Under the pieces are notes generated by a model. The model was not told the DNA's origin. It ran no database searches and worked only from the letters and a program-made list of their open reading frames with translations. The position numbers and the translations under genes were made by a program. From contig CALMTC010000011.1 in the NCBI GenBank assembly GCA_937872535.1, positions 62,001-126,000 of the forward strand: a stretch of DNA of 64,000 nt, written 5' to 3'. Shown here piece by piece: positions 1-60,385 of the stretch (positions within the stretch are counted from its first letter, which is position 1; every line of letters begins with the position of its first letter). This DNA comes from an uncultured bacterium. GTDB taxonomy: Bacteria; Patescibacteriota; Gracilibacteria; Absconditabacterales; Absconditicoccaceae.

Positions 1-2232
1 TCCTTTATCAGTGAAAAAGAAATGCAAAAGCTCAACTGTCACTGGGACATTAAGAAGAAGAATCATAAACATATTAACAAGCATCATAGCACCAAAACCT
101 TTAAATACATTAGTTCCCATAGAAAAAAGCAAGAAAGCTATCAAACCACTACTTAAATTACCATCTCTAATAGCAGACCAACTTCTCTGATATCCCAAAT
201 CAATAGCTTGTGAAAAAGTTTTTCCTGATTGTTTCTCTTCAAGAACTCTTTCAAAAATAAGAATATTTGCATCTACTGCCATACCCAAAGTAAGAATTAT
301 AGCTGCGATTCCACTAAGAGATAAAGCATAATCTGTAATTTTGACTACTGCAAACAAAACAATAACAAAGATCAAAAGAGTAAACAAACCAACAAGAGCT
401 TTCTTTAAACCATACATCAACCAGAGCATAAAGAAAATCAAAACAAATCCAACAGCACCAGCAATTAAAGCTCATTGAATAGCATATTCTCAAAGACTAG
501 GAGAAATTTTTTCCTCATTAGCAACAATTAATTTTACTGGCATCGCTCATTCATTGAGAGAAGTAATAAGTTCTTTAGCTGTTTCTACAGTAAAACCTCA
601 TTCAATTTGAGCTGTTCATCAACAAATTTTATCATTAATTTTTGGGGCAGTTTGTAAATTTCATCATACAAAAATAGCCATCTGCTTACCAATATTTTCA
701 GCTGTAATATTACAGAAAATTTCTTTTCCTTTATCATTAAAACTAATTTCTACAACTGGTCTACCAAGTTGAGATTGATTAATTGAAGCAAACTTAAAGA
801 AAGCTCCATTTAAAATCTCTGAAGTAGCGCTATCTTTAGCACTTACCCAGCTATTTTTATTTCTCACAAACACCTCTTCAAAAGAATAAAGTGTCTCAAA
901 TTGGATAGCATCCTGAAATTTTACATATTGAGGTTGAGAAACAGCATCAATAACTGCAATATCATAAAGTTTTTGGTCAGCTGCTTTTGCGGCACTTATT
1001 TTCAAAACATAATACCCATCAAACTGATCAAATAAATTAACACCAACTGAAAGTTTTTTATCTGCTCCAATATAACCCAAAATAGTTTGTTCATCTTGCC
1101 ATCACTGAACTACATTCAAAGAAGAATCTACAGAAACATTTTTTTCAAGACTTGCTTTCATTTCAAGAGCTTTTTGTTCTGCAAGAGCAAGATCTTGAGC
1201 AATTTCAGATTGATTTTTACCAATCATCTGAGGTTTTTGTATTTTATAGAGCTGTACATTATAAGCTTGTTGACCAGAAAAAATCAACCCATTATTATAA
1301 GTTAAACTTCTAGCACTTGGATTATAAAGATATTCTCAAACCTTTATAGAAGATTGTTGAGATTGAGAAGCATCTCTCACAGTAAGATTTTGAGCCAAAG
1401 CAGCATTTTTAAAGCGTTCCTTAGAAAGTGTAGTAACAGATTTCTTAGTCACTCAAAGAGATTTAACCACTAAGTATCCTTCAAGATTTTCAGTCACAGT
1501 AGCACCTGAAGCATCTACAGAAGAAACTTGATGATATAATCAAGCCAATACTCTATCTAAAACTTGACCAGATGAAAGATTTTGTAAAACAGTAAGATTT
1601 TTTGCGTAAATAGCTGGCAATTCAGAAAGAGTCACCTGAGAATAATTATTATAATAGACATCATCAGACCCTCTACCTTCAGTAAGAGACTGAAATTGCT
1701 GAGGATTTTTAGTCACTGAAACCAAAAAGTTATCAGCCAAAGATCTTCTCTTAGCCAAAAGCTCTGGAGTCGGTTCTTGCTCATTAGCAAGTTTAAATTC
1801 AAGCTCAACAGTTTTTCAAATAGTTTTTTTAGCCTCCTCTATGTCTTTAAGTCATCAAATTTCAACAATCACATAATCCTCACCATTTATATACTGGACA
1901 AAAGAATTATAATCGCTTACTCCAAGAGCAGAAATTCTAGAATCAATATTTTTCAAAATAATATCCAAAATTCTTTTTCTGACTTGATTATACTCAGTAA
2001 CATTCGAGTAAAGTTGTTTATATTCAGCAAAATCAGCTTTATAGCTAAATCTTACTCATCAAGAAACATCAAGACCTTTTCTAAAATAAGAGACACCATT
2101 ACTCGTCAAAGTAAAATAGCTCTTACCAGTGTCTGAATCAGTCTTTTTCCCGACAAAAAACACGATCAAGAAAGAAATAAAGAAAATTCAAAGAAGAATT
2201 AATTTCCTGTTTTTCTGCAAAAATAAACTCAT
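1..2232 (-). CDS. secD: Protein translocase subunit SecD (C-terminus cut by window edge)
   Basis: SecD is the membrane subunit that, with SecF, uses the proton gradient to help pull proteins through SecYEG. The reading frame is open for 744 codons when TGA is read as Gly, and runs off the left edge. An N-terminal membrane segment lies at about residues 6-24. A long periplasmic region follows. Near the C-terminal end there is the family pattern of a GG-rich P1 head (GGNLQTAP, GGFTVETAKEL, LNEGAMPVKL), then several membrane helices including GMAVDANILIFERV, the hallmark of SecD helices. The start ATG is at 2230-2232. The periplasmic part seems longer than in E. coli. SecF would be expected just beyond the left edge, but this cannot be seen. 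Confidence 0.93.
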
Positions 2233-2275
2233 TGTATACCCAGTTTAAAATAAGTAAAGAGTGATTAAGAACAAA

Positions 2276-2566
2276 CTATTTTTTTGATTTTTTATATAAC
2301 TTCAAAAAAAAGTACTGCAAATACATAAAAGGCAGAGAAAGCGTTTCATAAACATCACGCACAGTGCGTACGGTATCACTAAGCAGAAAATGTGCTCTCA
2401 AGATAAAAGCAATAGCCAATACCAAAAAGAAAAAGAAAAGAACAACACAAAAAGCTCAGCCAATAACCAACACATAGTGAGACACAAGCAAAACAGCTTC
2501 CATCAATGGTATGACTAGACAAATAAAAGGCCTCAAAAAAAGAGACACTGATGAAAATGTACTCAT
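2276..2566 (-). CDS. Small membrane protein, unknown function
   Basis: A 96-residue protein with two hydrophobic stretches (about residues 5-30 and 30-58, the second rich in Phe, Val and Leu), a short amphipathic segment, and a basic tail ending in a KKSKK pattern. One Gly is a TGA codon. It lies between the TPR-like gene and secD on the same strand, 57 nt after the former stop, so it is probably part of the same transcript. No family is recognised. No strong Shine-Dalgarno sequence precedes the ATG at 2564-2566, so the start is uncertain. Confidence 0.55.
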
Positions 2567-2623
2567 TACAGAGGGCTTTTCAAGTCTAAGTAAAGAAGAC
2601 AAATACAAAAAGAAAAGAAAAAA

Positions 2624-4204
2624 TTATTCAGAAATAGTACCCAAAGAAGACTGCTTTTGAATAAGATTTTGCTTAAAGCGTTGACTCTCAGAAAATCATT
2701 GACGTGTCTGGATTGCTTTTACATAATAATCTTTAGACTTTTGAAGTTGTCACATACGATAATAAATATCACCAACCACCTGATAAATATAAGATTGTGG
2801 ATTTTTGACTAAAAGAGCAAGCAAATCCTTAAGTGCATCATCAACTTTATTCTGAGCCAAACTGATACCAGCCTTCCCAAATCTACATAAACTAGGATTA
2901 TTGATAAATTGTTTATAACACTGTTGAAAATAATCAAGAATAAGTTGGCTATTCTTCTGAAAAAGAATATTTGATTTATTTTCAAAATAAGGAAGATAAA
3001 GCAATCTATAAAAGAAAAAATAATAATCTGACTCTTGCAAAAGAGAACTATTAGAAAATTGTTGAAAAATCGTCATCATATTTTTTTCATCACCAATGCG
3101 ATCATAAGACAAAAAAAGATATCTATAAATATCAGATTTAAACGATTCAAGTTGTAGCTGAGAAAGATAGATAATAGTCTCATTATATTTTCAAAGCCAA
3201 TAGTTACAAATACCAATCAAAAATCTATAAAAATCTTTCTGAGAAACATCCAAATCAACAAGTTTCTGAAAATACTCCAAAGAAACATCCCAATTATTCA
3301 TCAAAAAGTGAGAATAAGCTAAGATTTGATAAGGCAGAATATAATTTTCATGAGAAACCAATATTTTAGCTGAAACTTGCTGAGAAATAACATAATATCA
3401 ATGTTTAAAAGACACTAATCACATAAGTCATTGAAGATAATAAGCAGGATAATCAGATCTTTTTTGAACCATAGCAAAATAGCTTCTTACATCTTTTTGA
3501 AAATCGAGATAATTTTGAGAAGCAATTTGATCAATTTTTTTTTGAAAATCATCAATATTTAAAAGCAAAAGTGACAACAAAGCATCATAAAAAAGATAAT
3601 CGTCATTTTTTATGAGTAAATTATCCCTATAACTTTTCAGCATTTGTTTTATTTGCTCTATTTTTGTAGATCAAATACTCTGAAATTCAGAACTATTAAA
3701 ATAAACATACAAAACAACTAATGGTGAAAAAGATTTTTTTTCTGACGAATTCTTAAAACTCGAAGGATTAAAAACATCTTGGACATCAGAGATAAGCTGT
3801 AAAGCTTCATCAAATTGCAAATCATCAACAAGCCTTCCCACCAAGACCTCTAGCACTTCAAATTTTTGTGTTTTATCATAAAGTTGCTTCAGAAAATCGA
3901 TATCATAACGCTGTTCAAGAATCAAATCATTAGAATATTGAGATCTAAGAGAAACCACATCAATAGAAGAAATTTGACCACTACTAACATTAAGTCCTGA
4001 AAAAAGATCATAACCAGTAACAGCTTGATCAGATTGAGAAACACTAGTATCAAGACTTCCTGTATCAACAACAAGTAAAGTCTCAGTAGTTTTAGTAAAA
4101 AAAGAAAAAAAAGGTGACAAATTATCAATAAAAAAGAGCAAAAAAATCCAAAGAAGAAGAATCAATAATCATAAAAAGTATTTTATTTTTTTATAAGAAA
4201 ACAT
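2624..4204 (-). CDS. Membrane-anchored TPR-like repeat protein
   Basis: A 526-residue protein with one N-terminal membrane helix (about residues 8-28), then a long Ser/Asp/Gln-rich linker and an all-helical region from about residue 90 to the end. The helices contain recurring Tyr/Phe, Leu and Ala positions of tetratricopeptide type (for example YFQKLVDLDVSQKDFYRFLIG and the next pair). The likely role is a protein-protein scaffold on the membrane, but no partner can be named from sequence. It is joined from three code-11 fragments by TGA-Gly codons. The start ATG at 4202-4204 lies 20 nt after the stop of the DUF177 gene, suggesting co-transcription down to secD. Confidence 0.7.
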
Positions 4205-53887: not shown

Positions 53888-56800
53888 TTATTTAATGAGA
53901 GTATTAAGATAATTTCTCGTAGCTGGTCAAACTAATCATCTCAGTCAAGGATTATCCCATTTCTGCAAAATAGCATATTTAAGCTGAAAATTATACACAG
54001 CATCTTTCACATCCTTATCAAAAATTCAATCAAAAACTCACTGATAGAGCGATTCATTAGTCAAAATTCTCTGTAAAGTTATTACTCCTGATGATTGTTC
54101 ACCAAAATCAAAAGCTCTCGTAAAAGCAAATCACTGAGACGCTATTTTTGTTCCAGTAGTAGAAATAGTAGCACGATAAAGGTTTTCTAAATCAATTGGA
54201 CTACGATAAGAAAGCTCAGCAATAAATTTACCAGAAAGAACTTGAGCAATATCATCAACGAGTCATTTTCTATAGAGAGCATAACTACGAGCTTTTGTAT
54301 CAGAAATTGTATTCAAAAGAACAGAGACTTTTTGTAAAAAAACAACCTGATTATAAGAAGAACCTAACTTACCAAGATAGCTATTTATAGCCTTCCAAAA
54401 AGCAATATTTTTACTTTTCATAATTTTTCATCGATCAGATCTCAAACCATAAGCCGATTGAAAAAGTTTAGCCATTTCTCATCTCGTAATATAAGTAGAA
54501 TCACTAAGTTGATTAACAAGAGGCTGAAGAAATTCAGCATTTTTACCTCCCAAACGCATCACTCTAGCCAAAAAAGACAAAGCCTCAGTTTGTGTAATAA
54601 AATCATGTGGCTTCAAATAGGTTTTTCCAGACAAAATTTCATAACTATTATTCAAAATATTGTAGCGTTGAGCCAGATTTACATAGGAATAAAACCAATC
54701 TTCACGATTCACATCAGATAAAATAGTCGTTGGTTTCAATGTATCAAAAGGAATATCTCTGGCTAACATAAATGCTCTCATGAGAACCTTAATAAATTCA
54801 GCTTTTGTAGCAAAATCATCAATTCCAAACGGTCTAGCACTGATACCAGGTCTTCATTGAACGAGGCAATAAGCCAAAAGCGAATCAACAACTGATCCAT
54901 AAGCACTAGCTGCTGTATCAGTAAAAACAATATTTCCATAGTTTAAATCAGTAAATCTACACTCCTTTTTCATTTCTACATACCAACGAATTCTATCACC
55001 AAGAGCAAAAATAGGAGATAAATAACCAGTAGTTCCAACACCGATAAAACCAATATTTTTACCTGTCGAAGTAATATAAGTAGAATCACTAAAAGAAAAA
55101 CCAGTAAAATCAGCCACATCGACAAAAGAAAATATTTTACAAGTTGCACTACATCAGTCTCCATCTATATTATTTCCATCATCACACTGTTCTCTAGACT
55201 CTAAAATAGCATTACCACAAATTCCAAGTGCTTCAGACTTACAAATAGCGCTACATCCATCTCCATCACGCAAGTTTCCATCATCACACTCTTCACTACC
55301 CTGAAAAAAACCATCTCAACAAATAGCTTCCAATCCTCATCATCAAAAACTTTGAGAAGGAAAAATAACACCATCAGTTCAAATCAAAAATGTAGTAGAC
55401 AAACCACCAATTTTTAGAATACCTGTCGATATCTGTCCAGTATTCGTCGAACTAGTAAGACGGACTACCAAACTATCTCACTGAGAAACAATAGCAGGAC
55501 CAGCAGAAAATCACCCTCCATTAAGACTATACAAAATAGTTGTGGCACCAAGATCATTAAATCCGCTCAAAATAAGAACAACTGGTTTTGTAATCCCACC
55601 TATAGTAACAGAATTAGAGTCAATGGCAGTACCTGTAGCGACAGGAGTTTGACTAAAAAAAGTAAGAGAATCAGGAATCAAATCTTGATAATAGGGACTA
55701 ACTACTCAAACAGCATTACTAGAAGACGGCGCCAAAGGCACATAACTAGAACCATTATAAATAACAGATTGTACCTGAGTAGAAGCAGAATAATTTCATC
55801 AGACACTATAAGAAACATCAGCAAAACTAGGATTCCATCAAGCAAAAGCACCAACGGTACTACACGGTGAACTTAAAAATCACGGATTAATAACATCAGC
55901 ACAAGCAATTGAAGTTGCTGTAACAGAATAAGTAGGAGCTATCCATCAAAGTGACGATATCGCTAATTCGCTACCCAGTCCATTAACAAATCAGCCAATA
56001 AAATTAGCTCATCAATTACTATTACTAACAATCTGATCGTATCAGCTATTTTGAGCTCATCAGATATGAAAACCACCAAATCAGTTTCCAAAAGACGACA
56101 ATCTATGTAAATAGCTATTACTACCAGCCATCCAAAAACCAGTCCATCAGTTATTATAAGTGACCACATTATTATAAAGATTACCACCTATTTCGTCATA
56201 AATTCCAGCTTGAGCATTATTATAGCTCACGACATTATTAAAACTATTTTGCCCCTGTGTAAGAGAAAATATATGCAAACCATACTGAGCATTATTAAAA
56301 ATTTGCACATTATTAAAATAAGAATTAAGTGGATCCAAAAGATAAATTCAATTTTGTCAGTTATTATAAATTTGTGAATCTATAAGTCTCAAACTTCATC
56401 ATCAAGCCAAATGAAGTCAATTCAAGTTATTATTAAAAATTTGAGAAGAATGAAGAATTACCGGCGTATTTGATAAAAAAATTCAGTAATCGCTAGCATA
56501 TAAAGAGCTATTAAAGACAGAAACATTTGGAGAAGAAACTATAATAGCAGATGCTCCAGCAGCTTTTATTCTCAGATTATCAAAAATAACCTGCGAAGCA
56601 TTTACATCAAAAACATCCGTAGATCCAGAAAAATAGACCTGCCCAAGTCCGACAAAAACCACACAAGGATTAGAGACATTTAATGTAGTAGTCCACTGAT
56701 AAGTTCAGGACGAAAAATAGTAAACTGTATTTGCAGATACACTTCCAAGCACATTAGTTCAAGGCTGTAAAGTCACTTGATTAGCCAAAGTACAGCTATA

Positions 56801-56938
56801 AGCATTCCAACCACTCGTATAAACAGAAGTAGATCAAAAATAATAACTATTAAGATCCGCCAAAGTAGCTAAACTATTCCCTCCAAAACCCAAAAAAACA
56901 AAACAAATCAGTAATAAAATTTTTTTTCTCTGGTTCAT
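53888..56938 (-). CDS. Beta-helix surface protein with DUF4215 repeats and a C-terminal peptidoglycan-binding domain
   Basis: A 1016-residue secreted protein: signal peptide (about 1-25), right-handed beta-helix with NNxxxGIY rungs (about residues 120-290, for example [24 protein letters not shown]), and an Ig-like stretch. Next are two Cys-rich DUF4215 units ([16 protein letters not shown]...CSAIC and [16 protein letters not shown]...CSATC). SLH-like helical segments (about 620-800) follow, then a C-terminal peptidoglycan-binding fold ([37 protein letters not shown]...LVGPATRNYL). The last domain would hold it on the cell wall. Over forty Gly are TGA. Confidence 0.82.
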
Positions 56939-57072
56939 ATCAAAAAAACAAGAATAAAAATCATCTTTGATCTACTAAAATCATACAATAATGCAATCAC
57001 AAAGCACCTATTAAAAATAATTAAAAAAAAATGTAAAGGACTTGATTTTTTTAAAATTATCTATACAGAGGC

Positions 57073-57099
57073 GGTGTGTGAGAAATAAAAAAACACACC
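57073..57099 (+). promoter_or_regulatory. Hairpin just before the type IX-tailed gene
   Basis: GGTGTGT (57073-57079) pairs with ACACACC (57093-57099). The stem ends 8 nt before the ATG at 57108, so it could mask the ribosome binding region. A weak TTGATT/TATACA pair with a 14-nt spacer lies upstream at 57042-57067. Confidence 0.4.
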
Positions 57100-57107
57100 T
57101 AAATTAT

Positions 57108-58634
57108 ATGTATAAAAAATTAAAAAATTATTTGCTCTTTATCTTGTGTTTTTTGGTATTGTGTCAATCTCTGCTGGGACAAAACAAGCCAAAGAAAAAA
57201 AGTAGCCCTGCTGACTGGGGGTTGATGGCCGCATGGAATACATCCACTACGCCAACAGCAACAGATACAGCATGGTTTGGATCAACCTCTGGTCCTTGTT
57301 CACTTTATGTTTCTAGTGCAATCAGTACTTTGTTGATAGATAATCTCTATGGACAAAAAATTACTCTTTTGGACACAGTAAAATTAAAACTCCAAAAAGA
57401 TGTGATATGCAAAAGAAATGGCATTGTAACAATGGACTTTAAGAATGGAGAAATTGAGTTTTATGGTTCAGAAAATGCTGTGATCGACAACATCGCTCCA
57501 GTAATCAAAATTCGTAAGCTCAGAATCAACAAAAGCTCAGGAGCGACTGTTACCCTAATCAATCAGAGCGTACAATGTGACACTCTTATCCTAGATGGAG
57601 GAACTCTTCAGACCGGATCTTACAAGATCATAGTCGGAGATAGCACCTCTGGGAAACCTGGAGTCATCATTTCAAATGGTGGTTTCATGGAAGGCACTAT
57701 CTCACTCATCGTGACAACGAGTTCAGCAGCACAGGTAGCAATACCACTCGTACAAGCTGGACTCAAAAGAGAAATAAAACTGAATAACTTTAGCGGTTCA
57801 TTCGGACCGTCAAACAGAGGAAAATTAGAAATTTCCTTCGTAAACACTGCACCTGGGGACAATGGTCTTCCTCTAGTAGAAAACGGTAGAATTATGACCA
57901 CCGCATCTTCAGACGGGTTCTGGAGGATAACAAAAGTAGATGACATATTATCAGCTAGTTATGACATAAGCATAACTGCTGAAAACTTTAGCGGAATCTC
58001 AGATTTCGCGAACATAACGATACTAAAAAGATCTTCATCGATCGATCCTTGGACTGCGCAAGGAACACACGAAACTGGGACAGGGAGCAATTCATTACCC
58101 ACTGCTCATAGAACTAGTCTTACAGATTTCAGTGAGTTCGCGATTAGCCAAGGAAGTCCACCGACACCCCTACCGATTGAGCTCATCAAGTTCAAAGCTA
58201 TTGGAAAAAATCTAGTCTGGGAAATAAGCAACCCAGAAAAGATTAGTAGCTTTACAATAAGCCATTCCATCGATTTACTCAATTGGGAGCAAATAAGCGA
58301 AATTATTCCAAATTTAGCTTTTACATACTCTCAGACAGTAGATAAGAGTGGCTTCTACAGACTAAAAATCAATGAGATTGATGGTTCAGAAACTATTTCC
58401 ATACTAGAAATAGAAAAATCATCTTTCGATAAAACATCTACAGCTACCATCAAAGGAAAAACCCTAGATGTAAACTGTCCAGATGAAACAGAAATCATGA
58501 TTATGAGCTACTCAGGAGTTACACTCCTTGAGCAAAAAACACAAGGAAGCGCTTTATTCGATCTTTCTCACTTATCAACAGGGATTTACATCCTAAGAAT
58601 AGGAGAAGAAAAGAAAAAAATTTTCCTTGAATAG
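57108..58634 (+). CDS. Bacteroidota-like secreted protein with type IX sorting tail, likely acquired
   Basis: A 508-residue protein with a signal peptide (about 1-24, SLLGQ). A beta-rich region follows, starting near a WNTSTTPTATDTAWFG stretch with beta-helix-like rungs and a SSIDPWTAQGTHETGT segment. After PPTPLPIELIKFKAIGKN comes a C-terminal domain ending LSTGIYILRIGEEKKKIFLE, the pattern of the Por/type IX secretion sorting domain of Bacteroidota. Glycines use GGA, GGT and GGG; none is TGA. I chose ATG 57108; the frame is open upstream to 57042. It ends in TAG before a perfect terminator. Confidence 0.8.
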   Translation: MYKKLKNYLLFILCFLVLCQSLLGQNKPKKKSSPADWGLMAAWNTSTTPTATDTAWFGSTSGPCSLYVSSAISTLLIDNLYGQKITLLDTVKLKLQKDVICKRNGIVTMDFKNGEIEFYGSENAVIDNIAPVIKIRKLRINKSSGATVTLINQSVQCDTLILDGGTLQTGSYKIIVGDSTSGKPGVIISNGGFMEGTISLIVTTSSAAQVAIPLVQAGLKREIKLNNFSGSFGPSNRGKLEISFVNTAPGDNGLPLVENGRIMTTASSDGFWRITKVDDILSASYDISITAENFSGISDFANITILKRSSSIDPWTAQGTHETGTGSNSLPTAHRTSLTDFSEFAISQGSPPTPLPIELIKFKAIGKNLVWEISNPEKISSFTISHSIDLLNWEQISEIIPNLAFTYSQTVDKSGFYRLKINEIDGSETISILEIEKSSFDKTSTATIKGKTLDVNCPDETEIMIMSYSGVTLLEQKTQGSALFDLSHLSTGIYILRIGEEKKKIFLE

Positions 58635-58639
58635 ACTAC

Positions 58640-58667
58640 CCCCGTTCATAATGAACGGGGTTTTTTT
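58640..58667 (+). terminator. Perfect terminator after the type IX-tailed gene
   Basis: CCCCGTTCAT (58640-58649) pairs with ATGAACGGGG (58651-58660) around one base, then seven T. It is much more GC-rich than other terminators here. Confidence 0.9.
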
Positions 58668-58735: not shown

Positions 58736-60385
58736 TTACTTATTTTCAGATTCCAAAGCCTCGTTTATTCTAGTTGTGATCTCCCCACCGTAATAGTACT
58801 TCGCACCATCATAAAGAGCTAGTTTATCTTTGCCTTGTTCATGAGCATTAAAGAGATAAAGCCCAGCAGGTAATTGTGAAAGTTTATTCTTTTCAAAACC
58901 AGCAATTGGCTGTAATCGATCATGTCTTTTAGGGTTCTCTTTCAAAACTTCATTATGAGAAATTTCAAGAAAAGCCTGTCTCTGATCAATTTTACCACCA
59001 TTTTTATGAAAGATATGTTCATCAGCATCGACTGCTGTAGCCAATGACATTCCATTCTTTTTCATAATTTCTTTAGTTTCATTGAGCCCAACATGATTTT
59101 TCACATAGAAATACCTTAAATCAACCAAAACCTTACCATCTTTATCAATAATAAGCTGAGGATCTTTAGATTTTGCAATATATTTATTCTCTAAATCTGA
59201 TTTAAGAGTATAAAGAACAGAATAAGTTCAATCTGCATTCTTTTCTACCTCCGGAGTATCGGTTATATAAGGAGCTTCGTCAATTCCTTTCCCCACATAT
59301 CAATCTGGAAGAGATCTTCTTTTTGGAGTTTCTACAAAACCAGCAATTTCCTTCTGAGCATACTTTCTAAAATCATTGAGCGCTTTATAAGCTTCAGCCT
59401 TTTCCACATACTGACTTGCTCTCTGCTCATCCAATGTTTTAACCAAAAGATCAAACGCTTCTTTACCAATTTTCTTATCATTCAATTGATCTTTATATCC
59501 TTGCAAAACAGTAAGCAATTCTTGTCATTCACCATAATGTCTTTTCTGTCAAACATGTTCTCTATCAAGCAACTCCATAGACTCCTTGATTCTAGTCTCA
59601 AGCGGAATAGCCTCTGAAATAACTTCTTTTCCTTCATCTTTCTGAGTAGCAGTTTCCTGAGACGCAGACAATTCTTGAATCCTTTTTTCCCACCCCTTTA
59701 TCTGTTCATCAGTAGGATTTTCAGTAGTACTAATTTCATCAATCAAATCCTTATTAGCTTCTATAATTTTAGGAGACAAATTATAAAAGTCAGTAATCAG
59801 TTTCTCAGCCTTTTCTTTATTCTTGCCTTTTTCAATCACCGCCTCCCCTTGTTCCACTTTCTTTGGAGTAATAGCCTTCAAATCAGCAATAATCGAATCC
59901 ATAGTAATAGGACCAGCTATTCCATCCACACCATATCCTTTGAAATTAGCCTTCCCTCAATAAGTTACACCAAGCAGCTGATATTCCATGACAGCATCAA
60001 AAAAAGCTTTATCATAATCATCACTACAGTTATCACAAAGTTTAGCTAGATCTTTATAGAGAGGACCACTAGCCGTAGCTATAGTCTTCAAAGCCTTAAC
60101 AACTGTTTTAAGTCAAATTTCCACTTTCACAGAAAACTTTTCTTTCAAAATATTCTGAATCTCTATATTCTTAAGCTTATTTTGAACTTCAATCTGATCC
60201 TTATTGACACCATTAACTACTTCTATTTTCACTGAAGTAGCCTGTTCCTTAACAAGATCAAAAAGCGTCTTCTTATCTTTATCTATATTTTTTTTTCTAA
60301 ATTCCTCTACATTTTTACCGACTTCCTTAACATCATTAATAGTAATCTTCTCATCCTTATAAGGACTAAATATATCTCCAGGCAT
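58736..60385 (-). CDS. Unknown 549-residue protein with a peptidoglycan-binding-like segment
   Basis: No signal peptide or membrane segment is visible. The N-terminal third is helical and charged. Residues about 95-155 hold ALKTIATASGPLYKDL...LLGVTYGGKANFKGYGVDGIAGPITMDSIIADLK, whose GVDGIAGPITMDSI resembles the PG_binding_1 GxFGPxTxxA core. A Glu/Lys coiled-coil region (about 165-330) follows. The C-terminal 200 residues are mixed alpha/beta, with HNEVLKENPKRHDRLQPIAGF and a YDGAKYYYGGE tail. It uses AAG and GGT/GGG more than its neighbours but still has six TGA-Gly codons, so it is probably native. The function is unknown. Confidence 0.65.

Follow-up and report, generated by a model that had tools for sequence, protein, structure and literature searches.

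Described systems and their relation to the locus

The closest described counterparts of the gene studied here are the type A cargo proteins of the type IX secretion system (T9SS) of Bacteroidota, which carry the sorting tail described by the models TIGR04183 and PF18962. A second related case are phages of Gracilibacteria/Absconditabacteria whose genes lack in-frame TGA inside a code-25 setting, for which the authors infer a benefit of staying readable in standard-code hosts, i.e. a wider host range (PMC10746230). As a third, more distant analogy, the host-addressed genes of Agrobacterium are carried by one organism but written with the expression signals of another. The gene at 57108-58634 (+) shares with the T9SS cargo proteins a predicted signal peptide with Gln at +1, a large beta-rich body, a PLPIEL-type domain and a C-terminal match to the sorting tail, but it is encoded in a code-25 CPR genome with no detectable GldM or SprA, lacks the YPNP motif at the start of the tail domain and scores below the Pfam cut-off. 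In contrast to the code-11-compatible phages, the genes described here are chromosomal single genes or small operons next to native genes, some syntenic between species, no phage genes were seen around the conserved ones, and no phage record matched the window protein. In contrast to the Agrobacterium case, no transfer is shown and the promoters are of the carrier's own type. In the literature searched, no paper joining Gracilibacteria with type IX secretion or Absconditabacteria with C-terminal sorting was found, and chromosomal, syntenic genes of this TGA-free kind were not found described.

The gene and its surroundings

The window, i.e. the whole stretch of 64,000 nucleotides analysed (contig CALMTC010000011.1 of assembly GCA_937872535.1, positions 62,001 to 126,000), lies on a 227-kb code-25 contig of an Absconditicoccaceae genome, in which TGA is read as glycine. 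The ORF at 57108-58634 (+) encodes 508 amino acids with an ATG start and a TAG stop and is open in both codes. A profile search of the tail with TIGR04183 gave 24.7 bits compared to a cut-off of 23 (E 1.7e-5, profile positions 19-64 of 72), whereas PF18962 gave 23.4 bits (E 7.5e-5), which is below its cut-off of 27. A profile built only from the other tails of the family also found the tail (22.4 bits, residues 459-504, 58482-58619). The predicted fold of the tail had a pLDDT of about 90-95, and the tails of NucA (8glk), mirolase (8qb1) and gingipain (5hfs) were among the structural hits, however none with E <= 0.001 and with a model that was built on an alignment of other tails. A prediction of the whole protein from the single sequence was not usable (pLDDT 40), although it placed a helix at residues 2-23. 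This coincides with the predicted signal peptide at residues 1-24 (57108-57179), which was recognised by inspection only from its basic start, its hydrophobic core and the Gln at the presumed +1 position (SLLG/QNK), the Bacteroidota style; 40 of 56 family tail proteins with a signal peptide showed [AGSC]Q there. The body (residues 135-433, 57510-58406) is homologous to large Bacteroidota proteins with 31-37% identity and E-values down to 3e-35 in a sample of 395 Bacteroidota genomes. The PLPIEL domain at 58167-58415, which often precedes the sorting tail in Bacteroidota, is shared with a tail gene on another contig of the genome (loci L002/L003, 33% identity over 333-499) and with loci L079/L092.

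None of the approximately 34 glycines of the gene is encoded by TGA, while the other genes of the window comprise 457 TGA and 792 other Gly codons, i.e. TGA supplies about 37% of glycines. The neighbour at 53888-56938 (-), a native-code secreted beta-helix/DUF4215/peptidoglycan-binding protein, holds 42 TGA and 68 other Gly codons, showing that secreted natives do use TGA. The neighbour at 58736-60385 (-) is a native-code gene without family match (31 Gly, 6 TGA). Upstream of the gene, a weak promoter-like pair TTGATT/TATACA with a 14-nt spacer can be read at 57042-57067 (+), which is uncertain since it lies below the scan threshold. The 5' leader contains a stem-loop GGTGTGT(GAGAAATAAAAAA)ACACACC at 57073-57099 (+), followed by an AT-rich stretch before the ATG. 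All six tail genes of the genome have such a short leader stem-loop, but these stems were not significantly stronger than in natives (p=0.08). Downstream, an intrinsic terminator CCCCGTTCATAATGAACGGGG+T7 with a 9-bp stem and a 3-nt loop is located at 58640-58667 (+). It is real and the only strong one at 50-64 kb, though the number of terminator-like sites there is near chance (8 found, 6.7 expected).

Altogether, the observation made in the first-pass annotation, a secreted protein with a Bacteroidota-type sorting tail and without TGA-Gly in a CPR-like genome, with a terminator of its own and a stop codon working in either code, was confirmed. Only the claimed higher use of GGG and TGG is not distinctive, since the gene has 7 GGG and 7 TGG compared to 5 and 10 in one neighbour and 7 and 1 in the other.

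Occurrence of sorting tails in the family

The gene is not alone. In the same genome (1.25 Mb, 98.8% complete), six tails over the TIGR04183 cut-off were found on six code-25 contigs, each flanked by TGA-rich genes. In the GTDB family, 29 of 49 genomes have tails over cut-off, with about 70 tail genes in total, among them 17 of the 26 good genomes and two single-contig genomes of 1.04 and 1.18 Mb. Elsewhere in the phylum this holds true for 8 of 379 genomes. Since one member is labelled candidate division SR1, this is the recoded SR1/Gracilibacteria lineage.

GldM was found in none of the 49 family genomes, but over cut-off in 13 of 14 Bacteroidota controls. SprA_N was likewise not found, in a search without positive control, and full-length SprA is absent from the genome of the window gene. 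Of the 49 genomes, 46 showed exactly one class-I release factor, always far under the prfB cut-off, and that of the window genome bears the PAT motif, which is typical of RF1. Therefore, TGA should not stop translation here. Nonetheless, four tail genes have a TGA exactly where the tail ends, with the next stop 7 to 57 codons on. Two of these belong to the genome of the window (L011:8629-10056 and L014:9110-9898) and would be read through under code 25 by 57 and 7 further residues, respectively.

Codon use, synteny and start-site leaders

Over all extracted tail ORFs, 3,234 Gly codons are GGN and 60 are TGA, compared to 6,899 and 2,952 in the flanks. Most of the 60 lie in five or six proteins that use TGA throughout (L092, L100, L096, L084:8993-9622, L048 and L060) and that, where inspected, mostly have T-rich leaders like natives, as if domesticated. 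An opposite example is a tail gene with dockerin and HYR domains (L085:1586-5008), which holds 76 Gly and no TGA although its flanking Gly codons are 85% TGA; its dockerin stretch recalls Saprospiraceae proteins. In four loci (L080, L087, L065, L056, 5' of the tail gene), operons of two or three TGA-free secreted Ig-like proteins were seen, in which only the last gene bears the sorting tail.

Several tail genes occupy the same place in related species. Family A, in the genus here termed g13, follows a TGA-rich YadA-head/beta-roll-like gene, family B lies beside uS12 and other ribosomal-type genes in g13 and in one genome of genus g15, and further sets occur in g15, g18 and g19. Within these sets the tail proteins are 28-69% identical and hold 158, 572, 133, 94 and 126 Gly codons (1,083 in total) without one TGA, while the flanks use TGA for 18-63% of Gly. 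Four-fold codons differ in 53-76% of shared sites in tails and their operon partners and in 32-71% in flanks, so that silent sites have turned over; since they are saturated, this does not date the genes. Residence, and co-descent with the flanks, rests on synteny and on upstream regions that are homologous between species and include a native-type promoter (family A and the g15 set). The tree of family B tails places the genomes G031 and G024 outside the other g13 species, as flank genes do, while the flank tree is otherwise poorly resolved. The closest relatives of family B are SR1/Patescibacteria members of this lineage (47-67%), whereas the best Bacteroidota found in a partial search reached about 31% over most of its length. 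Family A showed only local domain matches to an Ig-like stretch in the 395 Bacteroidota. Apart from Gly, the codon use of tail genes is native-like (r=0.85 compared to a native median of 0.88).

A sigma-70-type pair (TTGAC-N16-TATAAT) with at least 9 of 12 matches, usually with a 16-nt spacer, was found for 45% of tail genes compared to 10% in shuffles, and for 39% of natives compared to 13%. The Bacteroidota element TAnnTTTG was at chance (9% compared to 12%). In contrast to the promoters, the leaders of tail genes are A-rich and Bacteroidota-like, with A at -6 in 35 of 44 tails compared to 115 of 328 natives (p 3e-8), although the native profile is approximate because native starts were taken as the first ATG. 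Adenines at -3, -6, -12 and -13 promote initiation in Flavobacterium (PMC6847099). However, the leaders of a rough Bacteroidota comparison set were less A-rich (A at -6 50%) than those of the tail genes, and other TGA-free genes share the A-rich leader.

ALTERNATIVES tested

High expression does not explain the lack of TGA, since EF-G uses TGA for 40 of 59 Gly and ATP synthase beta for 32 of 47 in the same lineages, and uS12 uses TGA as well. A switching of the code by RF2 was rejected, since no RF2 was found. For a phage or plasmid origin of the window gene, no phage match and only weak Hymenobacter/Flammeovirga plasmid matches (25%) were obtained, while a scan of viral contigs with family B gave nine weak relatives.

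The first-pass annotation interpreted the gene as a whole transcription unit transferred from a Bacteroidota host or neighbour, and this interpretation is only partly supported. The Bacteroidota character of the protein holds, as described above. However, the gene is one of six in its genome and thus not an isolated event, and the transfer of a whole transcription unit is not shown, since tail genes across the family carry the recipient's own promoter type, even though none was scored for the window gene itself. Furthermore, the absence of TGA is not simply a mark of recency, since syntenic, strongly diverged tail genes also lack TGA.

Interpretation

The reading that we favour, tentatively, is that the gene belongs to a class of Bacteroidota-derived T9SS cargo genes which this code-25 lineage keeps readable in the standard code. 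The computation itself establishes the sorting tails in 29 of 49 family genomes, the lack of detectable GldM/SprA and of RF2, the lack of TGA in the great majority of tail genes even where they are syntenic and strongly diverged, the native-type promoters on about half of them and the Bacteroidota-like A-rich leaders. From this it is only inferred that selection removes TGA because the message or gene is also used where TGA means stop, most simply in a Bacteroidota host cell, and it remains a hypothesis, without expression, protein or host evidence, that such a host makes the product or at least exports it by its Sec and T9SS, using and cleaving the tail. This would be the most economical account of TGA exclusion, leader, Gln+1 signal peptide, sorting tail and missing machinery. 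The co-variation of Absconditabacteria with Bacteroidetes in mats (PMC8406219) and the frequent transfer from Bacteroidota to Patescibacteria (PMC12455944) fit such a partner. On the other hand, the native-type promoters argue against transcription in the host, so that translation there would need transfer of mRNA, or of DNA with another promoter. In addition, the tail-bearing proteins that use TGA-Gly indicate that some tails are made in the cell itself.

Almost as possible is a recent horizontal transfer only, in which the window gene and most tail genes would have been taken up lately from Bacteroidota partners, the lack of TGA, the A-rich leader, the signal peptide and the tail would be donor features not yet eroded, and the proteins would be exported by Sec or be useless. 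For the window gene alone, a singleton, this remains equally possible. Among 58 relatives no full-length match was found, but only a C-terminal match (genome G009) and a weak N-terminal one (G026), only the C-terminal part matches convincingly in its own family, and the fetched loci showed no synteny of its neighbours. However, no close donor homologue was found either, the best reaching 37% in the partial sample of 395 Bacteroidota. A census of two genomes showed a bimodal TGA content with a sharp class of zero-TGA genes, which holds tail genes and also metabolic genes. By sequence look, these include sporadic nucleotide-synthesis genes with A-rich leaders (purA, purB, purC, prs and pyrE/pyrF-like; L136, L137, L144, L154, L118), of which purB occurs in only 4 of 49 genomes, without synteny and once broken, and looks like a plain recent import. 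The ends of two tail genes in TGA, a code-11 stop, and an array of nine tRNA genes (L013:36-1971), a typical insertion site, directly upstream of a tail gene (2089-3654) also fit this view. Nonetheless, the syntenic tail families in four genera, some with homologous promoters, are not explained that way, two families are closer within the lineage than to any Bacteroidota found, and the non-Gly codon use is already native-like.

It is unlikely that the proteins are made and used by the CPR cell itself, exported by Sec, with the tail as an ordinary Ig-like domain or wall anchor and TGA avoided for an internal reason, for example because the genes must be translated when the TGA-reading tRNA-Gly is scarce (a stage-specific code filter). 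The native-type promoters, the native-code tail proteins and the pairing of the family A tail gene with a native-code YadA-head-like adhesin gene, which suggests a shared surface role, speak for it. However, genes ending in TGA would be read through, other secreted surface proteins and highly expressed genes use TGA freely, and the Bacteroidota-like leader is not explained. A chimeric assembly or contaminating Bacteroidota contigs can be dismissed for the main cases, despite the fragmentation and up to 7% contamination of some family genomes and two hits in genome G064 (L102, L106) with TGA-poor, phage-like surroundings, since the window gene lies inside the 227-kb code-25 contig, all six tail genes of its genome are flanked by TGA-rich genes, and tails occur in single-contig genomes and in synteny across species.

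In its furthest form, which we consider doubtful, the hypothesis would mean that a code-25 CPR bacterium keeps a set of chromosomal genes addressed to its Bacteroidota host, transcribed from its own promoters but with coding text, start-site context, signal peptide and sorting tail suited to the host's ribosome, Sec and T9SS, so that the host makes and displays the surface proteins of the parasite. Even under plain transfer, a family with sorting tails in most genomes but no detectable secretion machinery, as judged from GldM and SprA, is a puzzle unreported in the literature searched. If selection really keeps a gene class readable in a code that its own cell no longer uses, this is a genomic fingerprint of gene products working in another organism. 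It would point to Bacteroidota as hosts of a lineage whose hosts are largely unknown, and would offer a simple screen, for TGA-free genes with A-rich leaders in recoded genomes, for the molecules at the contact between parasite and host.
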